Both the position numbers and the translations under genes were made by a program. The notes below the pieces were generated by a model. The model searched no databases, was not told the origin of the DNA, and saw nothing but the letters and a program-made list of their open reading frames with translations. Shown piece by piece: positions 38,393 through 43,914 of a stretch of DNA of 64,000 nucleotides. The stretch comes from a virus: the IMG/VR virus record IMGVR_UViG_3300027708_000029, positions 1-64,000 of that record, one strand, 5' to 3'. The first letter of the stretch is position 1. Each line of letters begins with the position of its first letter.

Positions 38393-38420
38393 ATTATAGA
38401 CCGAGAGGAGCCAGCGTCAA
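38393..38420 (-). promoter_or_regulatory. Sigma70-like promoter for ssb
   Basis: Minus strand -35 TTGACG (38420-38415), 16-base spacer, -10 TATAAT (38398-38393). The predicted start is near 38386, leaving a leader of about 45 bases before ATG 38341. The -35 element contains the TGA stop of the polymerase C-half gene. Confidence 0.8.
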
Positions 38421-40048
38421 GTCTTAGGAATATACGTCTTTTCAACTATTAACGAATCACCAGACTTGGCTCTGTTTCCTTTAATAATGATTACATTACC
38501 ATCAAATAAAATATTTCGATAAGCCTTATATGCTTCTGGAAAGAACACAACAGAGTCTATTACTCCTGTACCATCACTCATAGTAACAAATGCCATCTCT
38601 TGACCGGGAGTCTTACCAGATTTAGTTTTAGTAACACCCACATTCTCTATCTCTCCACATAAAATAATATTATCTTTAAGAGTAGTATTCTTAAAATCTT
38701 TACAAGTTGTATTAGTCATTGTAATATCATACATATCAACTTTAGAACAGGTAATACTGCATCCTAAGAAAGCATCTTCTGCATCAGAGATCCAGTCTGG
38801 ATTATCTTCCAAAGAATATGGGGGTTTATTATAGCTGTTAATTAAATCAAGTATGATACTTTTCCTGTTCTTGTTAGATTTACCATTATGATACAAATCA
38901 TATAAGGCATCTCCAATAGATTTATATTGATGCAAGTTGGCTAGGATGAAATCTGATTCTTTTTTTGTTAATTCAGACACTAAACCAAATTCAAATAACA
39001 TACTTGTTCTTTGTTTACCCAAATAAGAAACAGCACCACTTTGAATCAAAGCTTTGGCCGATGTAGAATTGATATTTATCAAAACCTTCATCAGCATTTC
39101 AACCCAATTCATAGTGTCAAAATCTAGTTTTTTATCCGTTTTAATTTTAATCAATTTATCAAAAACAGATTGTCCAAACCCTTTAATATCTGTTAATCCA
39201 AAATAGATCTTGTTGTCTTTTAAGATAAATAGTTGATTTAGATTCCTAATATCAGGTATACAGACAGGAACATCCATCTCATTAGCATTTTGCACTAACT
39301 CTTTGATTTCTGCTTTAGGATCAATTTTATCTTTAGCAAATCTCAAATAGGCTGCAAAAAAGATTTTTGGAAAATGAGCTTTTGTATATGCTGATAAATA
39401 ACTATTAATAGCATAACTAACAGCATGGGATTTATTAAAAGAATATCTTTGAGATTTTTCAATCCAGCCGAAAATTTCTTCTGCTTGAGAAGTAGCTACT
39501 GTTCCTATTTTTTCTGTACCTTCTAAGAACTTAATTTTAATCTTAGCCATTTCTTCTGGTTTCTTTTTACCAATGGCTTTTCTTAACATATCTGCTTCTT
39601 GAAGATCAAAGCCAGCTACAATCTTAGCGATTTCCATAGCTTGTTCTTGATAAATCATTTCCCCATAAGTTCCCTTTAAAATAGGTTCTAAAGAGGGATG
39701 ATAATAATCTACAGACTCCTGACCATTCTTCTTATCTATAAAATGATTGGAAACTGATTTACCGTCTCTAAAAGCTTCCAAGCATCCTGGTCTCATAATA
39801 CTAATCAATGCAGAAAGCTGTTCTATATTCTCTGGCTTTAATTTTTTGGCCATAGATTTACCAAGTCTAGATTCCAATTGAAAACACCCTTTAGTATTTC
39901 CATCTGAAATTAAATCCCAAGTCTTCTGACACTCCAAACTAATCTCTTCTATTTTTGGATTAAATTTAAGAGTCATTCTGTCTTTGTCTTCATGTTCAGA
40001 CAGAATATCAAAAGAACAACCGCAACTATATTGAAATTTTTTAGGCAT
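38417..40048 (-). CDS. dnaE: DNA polymerase III alpha, C-terminal part (split gene)
   Basis: 543 residues. After a 35-residue leader with a Cys-x-Cys motif (FQYSCGCSFDIL), it aligns by eye with DnaE from just after the palm Asp: TWDLISDGNTKGCFQLESR, then IMRPGCLEAFRDG, YGEMIYQEQAMEIA, ADMLRKAIGKKK, YSFNKSHAVSYAINSYLSAY. These are fingers and DNA-binding parts. Helix-hairpin-helix-like (NSTSAKALIQSGAVSYLG) and OB-fold parts (ILCGEIENVGVTK ... VIIIKGNRAKSGDSLIVEK) follow. The catalytic Asp residues are in the other gene. There is no intein at YSFNKSHA, the split-intein site of cyanobacterial DnaE. It overlaps the exonuclease gene by 8 bases. Confidence 0.88.
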   Translation of the reverse strand: MPKKFQYSCGCSFDILSEHEDKDRMTLKFNPKIEEISLECQKTWDLISDGNTKGCFQLESRLGKSMAKKLKPENIEQLSALISIMRPGCLEAFRDGKSVSNHFIDKKNGQESVDYYHPSLEPILKGTYGEMIYQEQAMEIAKIVAGFDLQEADMLRKAIGKKKPEEMAKIKIKFLEGTEKIGTVATSQAEEIFGWIEKSQRYSFNKSHAVSYAINSYLSAYTKAHFPKIFFAAYLRFAKDKIDPKAEIKELVQNANEMDVPVCIPDIRNLNQLFILKDNKIYFGLTDIKGFGQSVFDKLIKIKTDKKLDFDTMNWVEMLMKVLININSTSAKALIQSGAVSYLGKQRTSMLFEFGLVSELTKKESDFILANLHQYKSIGDALYDLYHNGKSNKNRKSIILDLINSYNKPPYSLEDNPDWISDAEDAFLGCSITCSKVDMYDITMTNTTCKDFKNTTLKDNIILCGEIENVGVTKTKSGKTPGQEMAFVTMSDGTGVIDSVVFFPEAYKAYRNILFDGNVIIIKGNRAKSGDSLIVEKTYIPKT

Positions 40049-40745
40049 GAGATGTTGGTGATTGAAATGAGTCCTTAAACTTAATCTTATTTCCTAGGTT
40101 ACGATGTAGTCTCATAAAACGAACCAGAATTTCTGCACAATCCTTAACATCTTTGAGAGCATCATGGGCACCCTCTTTATTAATACCAAGATAATCTCTC
40201 AGAGTATCTAAAGAAAGATTTTTTAGATCGCTATTGTTTTCAAACCAATAGAAAACTAAATTCATAATATCTAATACATCTCTTGGATAAAAAATATCAC
40301 TTCTATCTTCTTTATTAGTATTACCATATTTGCGACTAAGTCTATCAATAATTGGTAGGTCGAACCTATTAATATTATAGCCAGCGGCAATAGGGGCACT
40401 AAATTGGCTCTTCTTACTAGACCTGCTATGGTGCATAGTCAAATAATTTGTAAATAACTTCCATGATTGATCTTGAGAGGGATATTTCTTCCACTCTGCT
40501 AAAATAGCCTCTTTTGAAGAACCTCTTACTTTAGCATGAAAATCTAATATGTCTGTAGTATATTGGTAATCTTCATCATTTGCCAAAACTTCTGGTTTAA
40601 AAAAGATATTAAATTCAGAATTGGGAACAATCTCTAATTTCAATGGATCAATAATCACTGCGGCAATCTGAACAGGACTACAAGACTTTGGGTCAGAGCC
40701 ATCTGTTTCAAAATCAAACACACAAATTTTGTTATAGTTAATCAT
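40041..40745 (-). CDS. DnaQ-like 3'-5' exonuclease (proofreading)
   Basis: 234 residues. DEDDh motifs are visible: Exo I VFDFETDGSDP (Asp11, Glu13), Exo II AGYNINRFDLPII, Exo III EGAHDALKDVKDC (His then Asp). It lies between the two halves of the alpha subunit, overlapping the C-half by 8 bases and the small gene upstream by 4. It is very likely the epsilon-like proofreader of this polymerase. The C-terminal clamp-binding tail of epsilon was not identified. Confidence 0.88.
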   Translation of the reverse strand: MINYNKICVFDFETDGSDPKSCSPVQIAAVIIDPLKLEIVPNSEFNIFFKPEVLANDEDYQYTTDILDFHAKVRGSSKEAILAEWKKYPSQDQSWKLFTNYLTMHHSRSSKKSQFSAPIAAGYNINRFDLPIIDRLSRKYGNTNKEDRSDIFYPRDVLDIMNLVFYWFENNSDLKNLSLDTLRDYLGINKEGAHDALKDVKDCAEILVRFMRLHRNLGNKIKFKDSFQSPTSHA

Positions 40746-40936
40746 TCGGTGGTCTCAACCTCTACTTCTATTAATGGTAGAACCTGAATCTTTTGTTCTG
40801 GATTGTCTAATCTAGCAGCATTTATAACTGTACAACAACTAATTCTTTGTTCTTCAGTCTTAGTATACTTATTAAGTTCAAATGTAAATACCTTACCAAT
40901 AGCTAAATCCATAAATTTAATCTTTTGGGTTGCCAT
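40742..40936 (-). CDS. Small phage protein between polymerase genes
   Basis: 64 residues from ATG 40936. A TTG two codons upstream is rejected because AAAAGGAG sits at the right distance from the ATG. It begins MATQKIKFMDLAIGKVFTFEL and continues to KYTKTEEQ, a small beta-fold pattern common in phages (strand, Phe, charged turn, then Asn-Ala). Function is unknown. The ribosome site lies inside the end of the polymerase N-half gene, and its stop overlaps the exonuclease start by 4 bases. Confidence 0.55.
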   Translation of the reverse strand: MATQKIKFMDLAIGKVFTFELNKYTKTEEQRISCCTVINAARLDNPEQKIQVLPLIEVEVETTE

Positions 40937-40938
40937 AA

Positions 40939-42832
40939 TCAATCTCCTTTTGATAAAATGTCTTGAATAGTCATGATCTTATCTAACATTGCCACGCCAA
41001 GAATATCAAACTTGATAATACCTAACGCTTCTAGGTCTTGCATCTCCATGCCAGCTATAAGTTGGTCATTTTTTGAATCATATACCATAGGACACAGAGT
41101 ATTTAATGGTTGAGCACTAATTGCAATACCAGCCGCATGTTTGGACTGATTAGACTTAGTACCTTCTAATCTAATAGCCTGTTCAAACCTTTTGGCAAGT
41201 GGTCCCTGCAATTCATTTTTTTCATCTATATAGCACCATTCTTTCAGTTTATCTGGCTCATTTTCTAAAGCCCACCGAATAATAGATGCTTCGCCGGTTT
41301 CTTCTTTCATTTCTTGAAGATCATCTGCAATTTTAGCTTCATCTGGAATACTTTTAGTAATCTTATTCATTTCATCAAAGGATATATTACCATAAACCCT
41401 TAATACGTCCTTAATGGCACCACGACCCTTAATAGTATTAAATGTAATCATTTGAGAAACCTTATCAGCCCCATAACACTGCTTAATATATTCAATTACA
41501 TTTTCTCTTTTGTTGATAGGTACGTCTACGTCAATATCAGGCATAGAGATATGATCTTTGCTATTTCTTCCAGCATTATAAAATCTATCAAACAATAAGC
41601 CATATTTAATAGGATCAATACTAGTAATACCAATTAAATAAGAAACTAGACAACCAGCAGCACTTCCTCTTCCTGGTCCCGGAAGCCAGTTATTTGTTCT
41701 AACATAATTCACAATATCCTGCACAATTAAAAAGTAACTAGAAAGATCTGCTCCTTGTAGAACCTCTAATTCGTACTTAATTCTATTAACATAATCATTT
41801 TGAAGATCTTTATCTATAACATTAGCAATTTTATCTCTCCAACCATTACGACATAACTGCCTTAAATATTCATCTGGATTTGCCCCATCTGGACAAGAAA
41901 AGGGAGGTAAATGTGGCTTATCTAAGATGTTGTAGTTTTCACATAATGAATCTACTAATTTAGTATTTTCCATTTCTTCTTCTGTATGAAAATGACCCAT
42001 TTCTTCTGGAGATAAGATATGGAAGTTGTCGGATGTAAAAAAGCACCCAAGAGGCACCTCCTCATCGTTACTAATCTTCCTGCTGATCTCTGGGAAGGTC
42101 GTTTTTAAATTATTACAGAGAAGCACCCTTTGATCTACAGCATCCTCCTTACGGCAATAGTGAGCGTCTGGTGTGGAGATGATTTTTGTGTTGGTCATTT
42201 TGGCCAAATCTCTCATAGCACCAGTCAAAACTGTTTGGATAGGAGAATTGGCCGAATCCATTAATTGTGCTTCTAAAAAGAAATTTTCTTTACCAAAAAC
42301 ATCTTTAAGTTTACCAATTTGATCAATACCTATATTTTTCCAGTCGCCAAGTAATTGATTATCAACACTAATCTTATCTGCCAAATAGGATCCAGCATGA
42401 CCACAAAATCCAATAATATTATTATTACAATATTGTGCAAGAGTCTCTATATTTAGTCTTGGTTTATGATAAAAATGATCGGGTTGATTAGACTCAGAAA
42501 CAATTCTAATAAGACTCTTCCATCCCTCGTAGTTCTTGGCTAGAATAACAAAGTGAGTTAGGTCTTTATTTTCTTTTGTTTTAATCTTAGGATCTTGATC
42601 ACAAATATAAATCTCACACCCTAAAATAGGTTTAATACCCTTCTTCTTCATTTCTGTATAAAATTTAACTGATCCAGCAATATTACCATGATCAGTCAAT
42701 GCGCAAGAAGTTGCACCTATTTCCTGACATCTTTCAGCAATAGTTCTCGGTTGCGATAGTCCATCCAAAAGTGAGTACATAGCCCACCTAAGAATGGACA
42801 TGCAGAGGCACATATCCTCTAGTCATGTCCAT
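40939..42832 (-). CDS. dnaE: DNA polymerase III alpha, N-terminal part (PHP and palm), frame-broken near its start
   Basis: The natural start is ATG 42832, with AAGGAG at 42843-42848. That frame reads MDMTRGYVPLHVHS and stops at TAG (42790-42788). The rest lies in the +1 frame (RWAMYSLLDGLSQP onward) and ends at 40939, 624 residues if counted from an inner ATG at 42813. PHP metal motifs are kept: HVH in the first frame, then TDHGN, GCEIYI, TPDAHYC. The palm has GPGRGSAAGCLVSYL, MPDIDVDVP and IKFDILGV, holding all three catalytic Asp. It ends just after that, before the fingers, which are in the gene at 38417. Typical DnaE is about 1160 residues; the two parts add to about that. Confidence 0.85.
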
Positions 42833-42873
42833 ATCTAATTTTCTCCTTATTTCGTTGTTCTAACCAAAAATAT

Positions 42874-43914
42874 TTATACGGTGCCGGGTGCTTTGTAGTG
42901 ACCTATACTATAGCCGGGAGCTTGATACTTGTCAATGACAGCTTTCATCCCAGTTGTGTCTATATCATGTTTAACTTGTTCGCACTTTGTCATACATTGG
43001 TCTTTAGCTGTTAGTTGACCATCTCTATATTCTGTTAATGGTTGTATTGAACTATTAGCAAATGTACTTTTCCCAAAGTGGCATAACTTACTGCATTTCC
43101 AACTTTTATTTAGTTGTGGCTTTTGAGTATTCTTTATAGTCTCAAATTTTTGTTTCAACATGATTTCTGTTTTGTATAGATCTGTTTTATCAAAACAAAT
43201 AGTAAATGCTCCACCATCATTGATGAAATTAATAGATATCATTACGTGTTCGATCTCTGGGTACATATGCTGAATAGCATAGTGATATATTCTTAATTGA
43301 GGATCATTTTGTAATTTTTCTAAAGTTTTTTCTTCTCCAGTAGCCCAGTCTAATCTTCGTCCTGTTTTCCAATCAATAACTTCTAGAGTATTGTTATTGA
43401 CTTTGGTAATAAGATCAATAGTGCCTTTTATAGCAAGATTTCCTTCAAGGATTCCATCTTTGGTTTCATATCGGTATGATGACCAGGGTTTCTTAATCTC
43501 AAGATCAAAGCGTTGTTCTGGCTGAACGATATGTCTATTCCTAGGATCAAACATACCCTTATTATATTCTAAAGCTTTATTAATCCATGCATGACAATCT
43601 TTATGATCTTTTGGTTCCCAAACATGATGAGTGAACTGAGAAGTATAATATTCATATACTTGATCAGTTATTTTTTTGATACTATAATTATTAATGTCTA
43701 CTTTTCCGACAACATCATCCTCAAAAATTGGACTATTGTTTTGGGTATTTAGTTTAATAAATGCTAAGATTTCTAAAGCCTTATGACAAATAGTTCCTTT
43801 GTCTGCTTTTTTATTTGATGGAGATCTTAAACCAAGGATATACTCAAAAAAATATTGCTGTGGACACATAGAGTGTGTGCCATAAGAACTACTTCTTAGA
43901 TATGTAATTATAAT
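42874..43914 (-). CDS. RecB/Cas4-like PD-(D/E)XK nuclease (non-AUG start likely)
   Basis: The first ATG is 43869, but the frame before it reads TYLRSSSYGTHS, leading into MCPQQYFFEYILGL; this is the family's usual N-terminal motif, so translation should begin earlier. No ATG, GTG or TTG exists between a stop near 43980 and 43869. AAAAAGGA (43930-43923) lies 8 bases before an ATT at 43914, used here as a tentative start. The core reads GTICHKALE (His), IKGTIDLITK (Asp), LEVIDWKTG (Asp-x-Lys) and LRIYHYA. Cysteines near both ends (CPQQ, WKCSKLC, CMTKC) may hold an iron-sulfur cluster as in Cas4/AddB. A recombination or end-processing exonuclease is likely. Confidence 0.75.
   Translation of the reverse strand: MIITYLRSSSYGTHSMCPQQYFFEYILGLRSPSNKKADKGTICHKALEILAFIKLNTQNNSPIFEDDVVGKVDINNYSIKKITDQVYEYYTSQFTHHVWEPKDHKDCHAWINKALEYNKGMFDPRNRHIVQPEQRFDLEIKKPWSSYRYETKDGILEGNLAIKGTIDLITKVNNNTLEVIDWKTGRRLDWATGEEKTLEKLQNDPQLRIYHYAIQHMYPEIEHVMISINFINDGGAFTICFDKTDLYKTEIMLKQKFETIKNTQKPQLNKSWKCSKLCHFGKSTFANSSIQPLTEYRDGQLTAKDQCMTKCEQVKHDIDTTGMKAVIDKYQAPGYSIGHYKAPGTV
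42907..42935 (-). promoter_or_regulatory. Sigma70-like promoter for polymerase N-half
   Basis: Minus strand -35 TTGACA (42935-42930), 17-base spacer, -10 TATAGT (42912-42907), with predicted start near 42900, about 68 bases before ATG 42832. It lies inside the 3' end of the nuclease gene. It would drive the polymerase N-half, the small gene, the exonuclease and the polymerase C-half as one transcript. Confidence 0.72.

Follow-up and report, generated by a model that had tools for sequence, protein, structure and literature searches.

A probable ribosomal bypass element with two hairpins, linked to endonuclease genes, at the start of viral DNA polymerase III alpha genes

The gene for the alpha subunit of DNA polymerase III (Pol III alpha) on the minus strand of the window (the whole 64,000 nt stretch that was analysed, part of a virus record of 131,248 bases) is interrupted by a stop codon and a change of frame within the metal motif of its PHP domain. 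This interruption is very probably a programmed translational bypass (hop), situated on a cassette that is now, or was formerly, linked to an endonuclease gene. Comparison of relatives establishes that the interruption is conserved, that its frame varies, that the codons on its two sides match, that two hairpins frame it, that it is associated with endonuclease genes, and that it has a scattered distribution. The occurrence and efficiency of the bypass, the order of its steps, and cutting by the endonuclease at this site are what we infer from these sequences. Of the four explanations offered in a preliminary description of the locus, ribosome bypass has gained from the comparative data, whereas +1 frameshifting of the prfB type, an insertion, and a sequencing or assembly error have not; both hairpins and the endonuclease association were absent from that description and emerged in the present analysis.

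In the window, the leader starts at ATG 42832 and reads ATG GAC ATG ACT AGA GGA TAT GTG CCT CTG CAT GTC CAT TCT TAG, i.e. 14 codons encoding MDMTRGYVPLHVHS plus the stop (42788 to 42832, minus strand, as for all features of the element below). A Shine-Dalgarno sequence, AAGGAG, is found at 42843 to 42848, and an AGGAG-type site is present in nearly all interrupted relatives. The terminal TCT-TAG (42793 to 42788) consists of a Ser codon (TCT, 42791 to 42793), which would serve for take-off, and the stop TAG (42790 to 42788). The PHP/polymerase frame is +1 relative to the leader (AGG TGG GCT ATG TAC TCA CTT TTG GAT GGA) and open to 40939. From ATG 42780 it encodes the rest of the PHP domain and the palm region of Pol III alpha (613 aa, 40939 to 42780), as judged from homologues and Pfam (PHP, 3e-31; DNA_pol3_alpha, 8.9e-73). 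The letters and Pfam matches thus agree with the preliminary description, in which the HVHS leader ended at TAG and the PHP domain resumed in +1. It also proposed that removal of exactly 10 bases would give HVHS-MYSLLDG; dropping TAGGTGGGCT (42781 to 42790), which comprises the stop, the gap and the putative landing codon GCT (42781 to 42783), indeed restores the exact spacing of all uninterrupted relatives. Its placement of the break at 42787 to 42832 was too short, since the landing codon and a second hairpin occupy 42769 to 42789.

A search of viral contigs with the N-terminal part of alpha returned 80 relatives (58-99% identical). Two pattern scans yielded 82 stretches, 80 of them broken by a stop after HVHS, and these collapse to 54 distinct junctions; pattern matches with TGG instead of the stop (L131, L142) were discarded. 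When the scan was widened to any HxHS-stop, L178 was the sole addition; its polymerase is more distant (HCHS, TCC TAA GTGGAG TCT), and the total is then 55 versions. L177 and L179-L181 from the wider scan were chance matches, as were L174 and L175 from genome contigs. The L178 alpha gene (minus strand) also contains an apparent intein start, CVCPNTKIYTNNGIKLIKNISIGEQI, directly after a GSGRG motif about 1.1 kb past the junction. The isolates in the phage collection include no close relative (all tblastn identities are below 60%, the best among the matches listed being 34%).

Leader, stop and gap are identical in the close relatives L002-L005, L033, L075 and L080, and comparable ones occur in dozens of diverged contigs. 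This recurrence in independent contigs rules out a sequencing or assembly error, and the frame break is therefore real. At the spot that the preliminary description proposed to compare in related phages, HxHS-stop is kept in about 80 contigs and the PHP ligands are invariant. Uninterrupted relatives have neither the stop nor the first hairpin (hairpin 1), and read HCHS, HVHS or HLHS followed immediately by x-[YFHM]-SLLDG, with zero extra residues. When records were searched whole, each of 20 interrupted ones contained one element, as did the window's own record, compared to none of 4 uninterrupted ones; weaker whole-record matches were mostly the mirror strand of the same palindrome.

The distance skipped, from the take-off Ser codon to the codon at which reading resumes, is 6, 7, 8, 9, 10, 11 or 12 nt, and leaves a remainder of 0, 1 or 2 on division by three in 14, 19 and 21 of the 54 junctions, respectively. 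With all three frame relations present, +1 frameshifting or readthrough cannot account for every junction. A TCN codon with a stop (TAA in 28 junctions, TAG in 23, TGA in 3) directly after it is found in 54 of 54. The codon preceding the resume codon is TCT, TCA, TCC, TCG, ACT, GCT, GCC, TTT or TGA, and agrees with the take-off codon at two or more positions in every junction (all three in 21), with C and U at position 3 counted as a match. At control offsets of -4, -3, -2, -1 and +1, the same matching is seen in only 1, 0, 5, 0 and 2 of the 54. Some landing codons (GCT, ACT, TTT) agree at two of three positions only, and that of L097 is TGA. Outside the landing codon, C accounts for 3 of 208 gap bases. 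A hop to the landing codon always recovers the spacing and length of uninterrupted relatives.

Upstream of the break, the residues Y, P, L, H, V, H and S of the motif Y-x-P-L-H-V-H-S are invariant, and the Y, P and L codons vary synonymously. Downstream, the PHP ligands are invariant in interrupted and uninterrupted relatives alike. The two parts therefore behave as one protein, and strong purifying selection appears to act on both sides of the break. At the sequence level this is a single protein encoded by two reading frames with a non-coding gap between them: coding is kept, the frame varies, and the length of the product fits. A dead insertion is contradicted by the invariant motif before the stop and the intact metal ligands after it, and the suggestion in the preliminary description that the broken part is still read gains support.

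Hairpin 1 is formed by the first three codons of the leader (ATG GAC ATG in the window; 5' arm ATGGACATG, 42824 to 42832) and the HVH codons of the metal motif (CAT GTC CAT; 3' arm CATGTCCAT, 42794 to 42802), and its stem stops exactly before the take-off codon, so that, as in T4 gene 60, a 5' stem-loop lies upstream of take-off. The 3' arm is seen in folds as well as by covariation, and an RNA model matches the window at 60.5 bits. Amongst 43 distinct sequences, 97.9% of cells are paired, compared to 25-47% in slid versions, and two-sided changes occupy 19 cells versus 6.7 in shuffles. Even the start codon covaries (GTG with CAC in L061), and the distant L178 pairs ATGGCAG with CTGCCAT. The loop contains a further stem of inconstant sequence, which single-sequence folds place in the window at 42804 to 42820 (AGAGG, 42820 to 42816, with CCTCT, 42808 to 42804). 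The mean folding energy, -17.6 kcal/mol (z -5.4), contrasts with -2.4 (z 0.1) for the corresponding region of uninterrupted relatives.

One arm of hairpin 2 is made up of the stop and gap, the other of the Ser-Leu codons of YSLLDG; the landing codon is situated in the loop or close to it. Examples of its arms are AGGTGGG with CTCACTT in the window (42783 to 42789, including two bases of the stop codon, and 42769 to 42775, the end of the Tyr codon with the Ser and Leu codons), TAGAGAAT with ATTCTCTA in L054, TAACGA with TCGTTA in L066, and TAGCGA with TCGCTA in L140. The stop belongs to this take-off stem-loop: of 40 distinct gap/arm sets, 38 have two or three of its bases paired. When the register was refitted each time, the mean stem score was 14.9. 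Swapping of partners lowered it to 11.9 ± 0.4 (300 shuffles, maximum 13.3), and arms taken from uninterrupted relatives gave 9.0. Counting of pairs gave 27 two-sided cells versus 7.1 in shuffles, and 86.9% paired versus 31-43% when slid. The refitted score is the fairer test, because the register for pair counting was set by hand and the slid control leans towards that register. Hairpin 2 is weak in the shortest gaps (L061, L126), where hardly any stem is possible, and has one mismatch in an otherwise 8-bp stem in L134 and L096. Downstream of it there is no excess stability, and no 3' stem-loop that might aid landing was found there.

From these features, the following course of events can be proposed. 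A ribosome would initiate at ATG 42832 and translate 14 codons, until peptidyl-tRNA-Ser occupies TCT in the P site with TAG in the A site. Hairpin 2 would then hide the stop within its stem of stop, gap and Ser-Leu codons and stall the ribosome, and the tRNA would release TCT. Re-pairing of hairpin 1, between the start region and the HVH codons, behind the ribosome might drive the mRNA forward, over 6-12 nt, to a triplet that the tRNA is able to bind. In the window it would re-pair at GCT, and translation would resume at ATG 42780, giving HVHS-MYSLLDG in one PHP-containing N-terminal part of alpha of 627 aa, with the junction YVPLHVHSMYSLLDG and without the residues RWA encoded by the gap. Leaders have 13-14 codons, and the nascent chain at take-off is 14 residues long in the window; a distant nascent-peptide signal of the gene 60 type, 25-30 residues before take-off, is therefore absent.

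Among the alternatives, termination at the leader stop followed by downstream re-initiation survives best, though it is unlikely. The leader would then be a short peptide, and the polymerase would start inside the present gene without HxH. Bacterial and phage genes are frequently translationally coupled, an in-frame GTG lies just past the stop in 13 of the 54 junctions, and the resume codon is ATG in 14, including the window. However, in 23 junctions the landing frame contains neither ATG nor GTG nor TTG as far as the resume codon, this codon included, and invariance of the leader's Y, P, L, H, V, H and S and of the remaining PHP ligands would not be expected. Re-initiation also accounts for neither the landing-codon matching nor hairpin 2.

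Programmed +1 frameshifting at TCT-TAG, as in prfB, would produce HVHS-RWA-MYSLLDG with three extra residues. It suits the window when taken singly, where the break is in +1 and that frame is open across the gap, but it is improbable for the family: among relatives that share leader, stop and hairpins, the break occurs in every frame, there is no constant slippery heptamer, and no uninterrupted relative has the extra residues. Moreover, the non-zero-frame junctions L097, L122, L128 and L137 have a second stop, past that of the leader, in the landing frame. Examined junction by junction, both +1 frameshifting and re-initiation at GTG were rejected as general explanations. About as improbable is an RNA-level event (a tiny intron, editing or processing) that takes out the 6-12 bases ahead of translation. 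A processing signal might likewise have covarying structure at both borders, but neither a stop beside the take-off codon nor tRNA-like matching of the landing codon is expected of it; the boundaries differ in length and lack conserved splice bases, and we know of no splicing that removes 6-12 nt in phages. Finally, it is scarcely credible that the element is decaying, with a broken polymerase start that the protein can do without and hairpin 1 as a translational operator like that of T4 gene 43: hairpin 1 does cover the start codon, and phage polymerases can autoregulate through hairpins (PMC3014915), but an operator needs no stop, gap or matched landing codon, and decay is at odds with the strong purifying selection before and after the break, with the upkeep of 54 variants and with the covariation of the two hairpins.

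In some relatives the element has a genetic neighbour. In 7 of the 54 junctions, an endonuclease ORF of 238-253 aa ends within the region of hairpin 1, and the stop of this ORF overlaps the leader. A further 4 have endonuclease remnants, so that a gene or remnant abuts the leader in 11 of 54. The ORF has zinc-ribbon-like cysteines and an HNH/Endo VII-like C-terminal part, and matches PHROG families 3322 (endonuclease, 5.7e-20), 374 (HNH, 2.5e-18) and 1035 (Endo VII, 2.6e-13); a Pfam search gave no family above the cut-off, and a PDB search no match. In a separate scan of viral contigs, all 11 relatives of this ORF were at interrupted loci. No abutting endonuclease ORF was seen at the uninterrupted loci examined, and nearly all uninterrupted relatives have a polymerase start that overlaps the previous stop or is close to it. 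The window has no endonuclease gene at the leader, only a spacer of 41 nt (42833 to 42873) that includes the Shine-Dalgarno sequence; locus comparison shows that this is where some relatives have the gene or its remnant. Selfish DNA-cutting genes appear to have targeted the break site in the polymerase, and the element is best read as part of a mobile or formerly mobile cassette linked to a homing endonuclease gene of HNH/Endo VII type, which would cut here.

Spacers of 94-99 nt with promoter-like sites (TTGACA-N16/17-TACAAT) are found directly upstream of the interrupted leader in L144, L156 and L162. The only contig from genome collections with the element is L176 (1285 to 1323), which has the same junction as L122 and L128 and an endonuclease remnant; it was binned with a Chitinophagia MAG, a weak hint at a possible host. 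A paralogous HNH gene is located about 1.2 kb upstream in both interrupted and uninterrupted relatives, and the replication operon therefore seems to be a hot spot for such genes. In L033, L048, L095, L128, L152 and L156, an HNH endonuclease gene of this second, related kind lies some 1.1-1.8 kb ahead of the leader, and in L152 it is in several pieces.

The tree of the polymerase body was computed after removal of alignment columns 1-59 and of four rows that were long or unstable. On it, the label changes between interrupted and uninterrupted at least 18 times, and supported branches demand 11 of these changes. The hypothesis that interrupted alleles form one clade is rejected (p-AU 3e-44). 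Such a scatter would arise if the element had been transferred repeatedly, lost repeatedly, or both. The increase in identity amongst interrupted alleles is confined to roughly the first 8 codons, and hairpin 2 accounts for part of it. Horizontal spread with co-conversion of the flanks, first read from higher identity in 12 codons, may have taken place, but hairpin 2 and finer windows explain part of that signal.

Reviews described programmed bypassing as apparently unique to T4 gene 60 in 2010 (PMC3014915), and in 2016 knew few further cases and no natural in-frame stop hop (PMC5009743). In the 50-nt bypass of gene 60, a stop follows the take-off codon, the tRNA re-pairs at the landing codon, and two stem-loops take part, the take-off stem-loop and a 5' one that folds again behind the ribosome (PMC11194080, PMC5009743); in another system, too, a refolding upstream hairpin moves reading forward (PMC3639245). 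The polymerase element has the same parts in miniature, and in some relatives, as in T4 (HNH endonuclease gene mobA), an endonuclease gene adjoins. It differs in its gap (6-12 nt, 4-8 times shorter), in the start codon inside the 5' hairpin, in the lack of a detectable 3' stem-loop, in the gene and the tRNA (Ser instead of Gly), and in having more than 50 natural variants instead of one. The element thus appears to work like gene 60 and is not filed as its homologue. The endonuclease link suggests the same history as that of T4 mobA and gene 60, on which mobile-cassette work by Bonocora and colleagues in 2011 has reportedly been done. T4 mobA is the neighbour of gene 60, and a protective role against the endonuclease has been suggested for the 50-nt insert (PMC5009743, PMC3014915); the gap in the polymerase gene probably spoils the target of its endonuclease likewise.

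Other systems share single features. In synthetic stop-hops (E. coli reporters), peptidyl-tRNA crosses a stop between matched codons, an arrangement identical to TCT TAA TCT in L061, but the polymerase element is natural, conserved and framed by two hairpins. The putative bypass in the terminase of Streptomyces phage Hau3 is also a short gap in a phage gene, but is proposed to depend on a rare UUA codon, and PMC5009743 mentions no covarying hairpin set for it. The byp elements of Magnusiomyces capitatus mitochondria are short inserts skipped by ribosomes, with take-off and landing codons that are not always fully matched (PMC5009743); these, however, number 81 per genome and are context-independent under relaxed mitochondrial decoding, unlike the one site per genome with dedicated structures seen here. 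Free-standing phage homing endonucleases (mob, seg, F-CphI) resemble the polymerase-linked one as HNH or Endo VII-motif ORFs of patchy presence beside a conserved gene, but only in the latter does the stop of the putative endonuclease overlap the start hairpin of a neighbouring gene that carries a bypass. In the open-access literature we found no report of a polymerase bypass element. It would be the second case in phages of ribosome bypass linked to endonuclease genes.

On balance, we favour the view that these are a widespread and diversified family of mobile bypass elements, each an endonuclease gene with a two-hairpin stop-hop of 6-12 nt: a selfish cassette in an essential polymerase gene that uses neither RNA nor protein splicing, gained repeatedly and kept after endonuclease loss. 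With more than 50 variants, the family shows which variation is tolerated (gap length, frame, stop codon, upper stem) and which parts are fixed (the Ser take-off codon, adjacent stop, two stems and a re-pairable landing codon). It would represent a minimal bypass system without a long nascent-peptide signal, in which the idea of a refolding-hairpin motor and a hidden stop is directly testable. One practical consequence is that annotations of such polymerases are wrong and lack the start of the PHP domain.

Further along the window, Pol III alpha is split into two genes (38417 to 42832), a PHP/palm part (40939 to 42832) and a finger/HhH/OB part (38417 to 40048), between which are an RNase T-type exonuclease gene (40041 to 40745) and an ORF of 66 aa (40742 to 40942). 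The upstream PD-(D/E)XK nuclease gene was suspected of a second bypass, as the ORF that starts with ATG is 15 codons short at its beginning. This was rejected: the frame is open to an apparent ATT start (ATT ATA ATT ACA, 43908 to 43914) that overlaps the TAA of the preceding gene. A non-ATG start of this gene is common to many relatives, and others have ATG there. The window also contains very large ORFs (3011, 1456, 1832 and 2616 aa, between 191 and 28631), the 3011-aa one with repeated units resembling GGxVYAxxGxLIxxxPRGTDTVPAMLTPGEFVVN.
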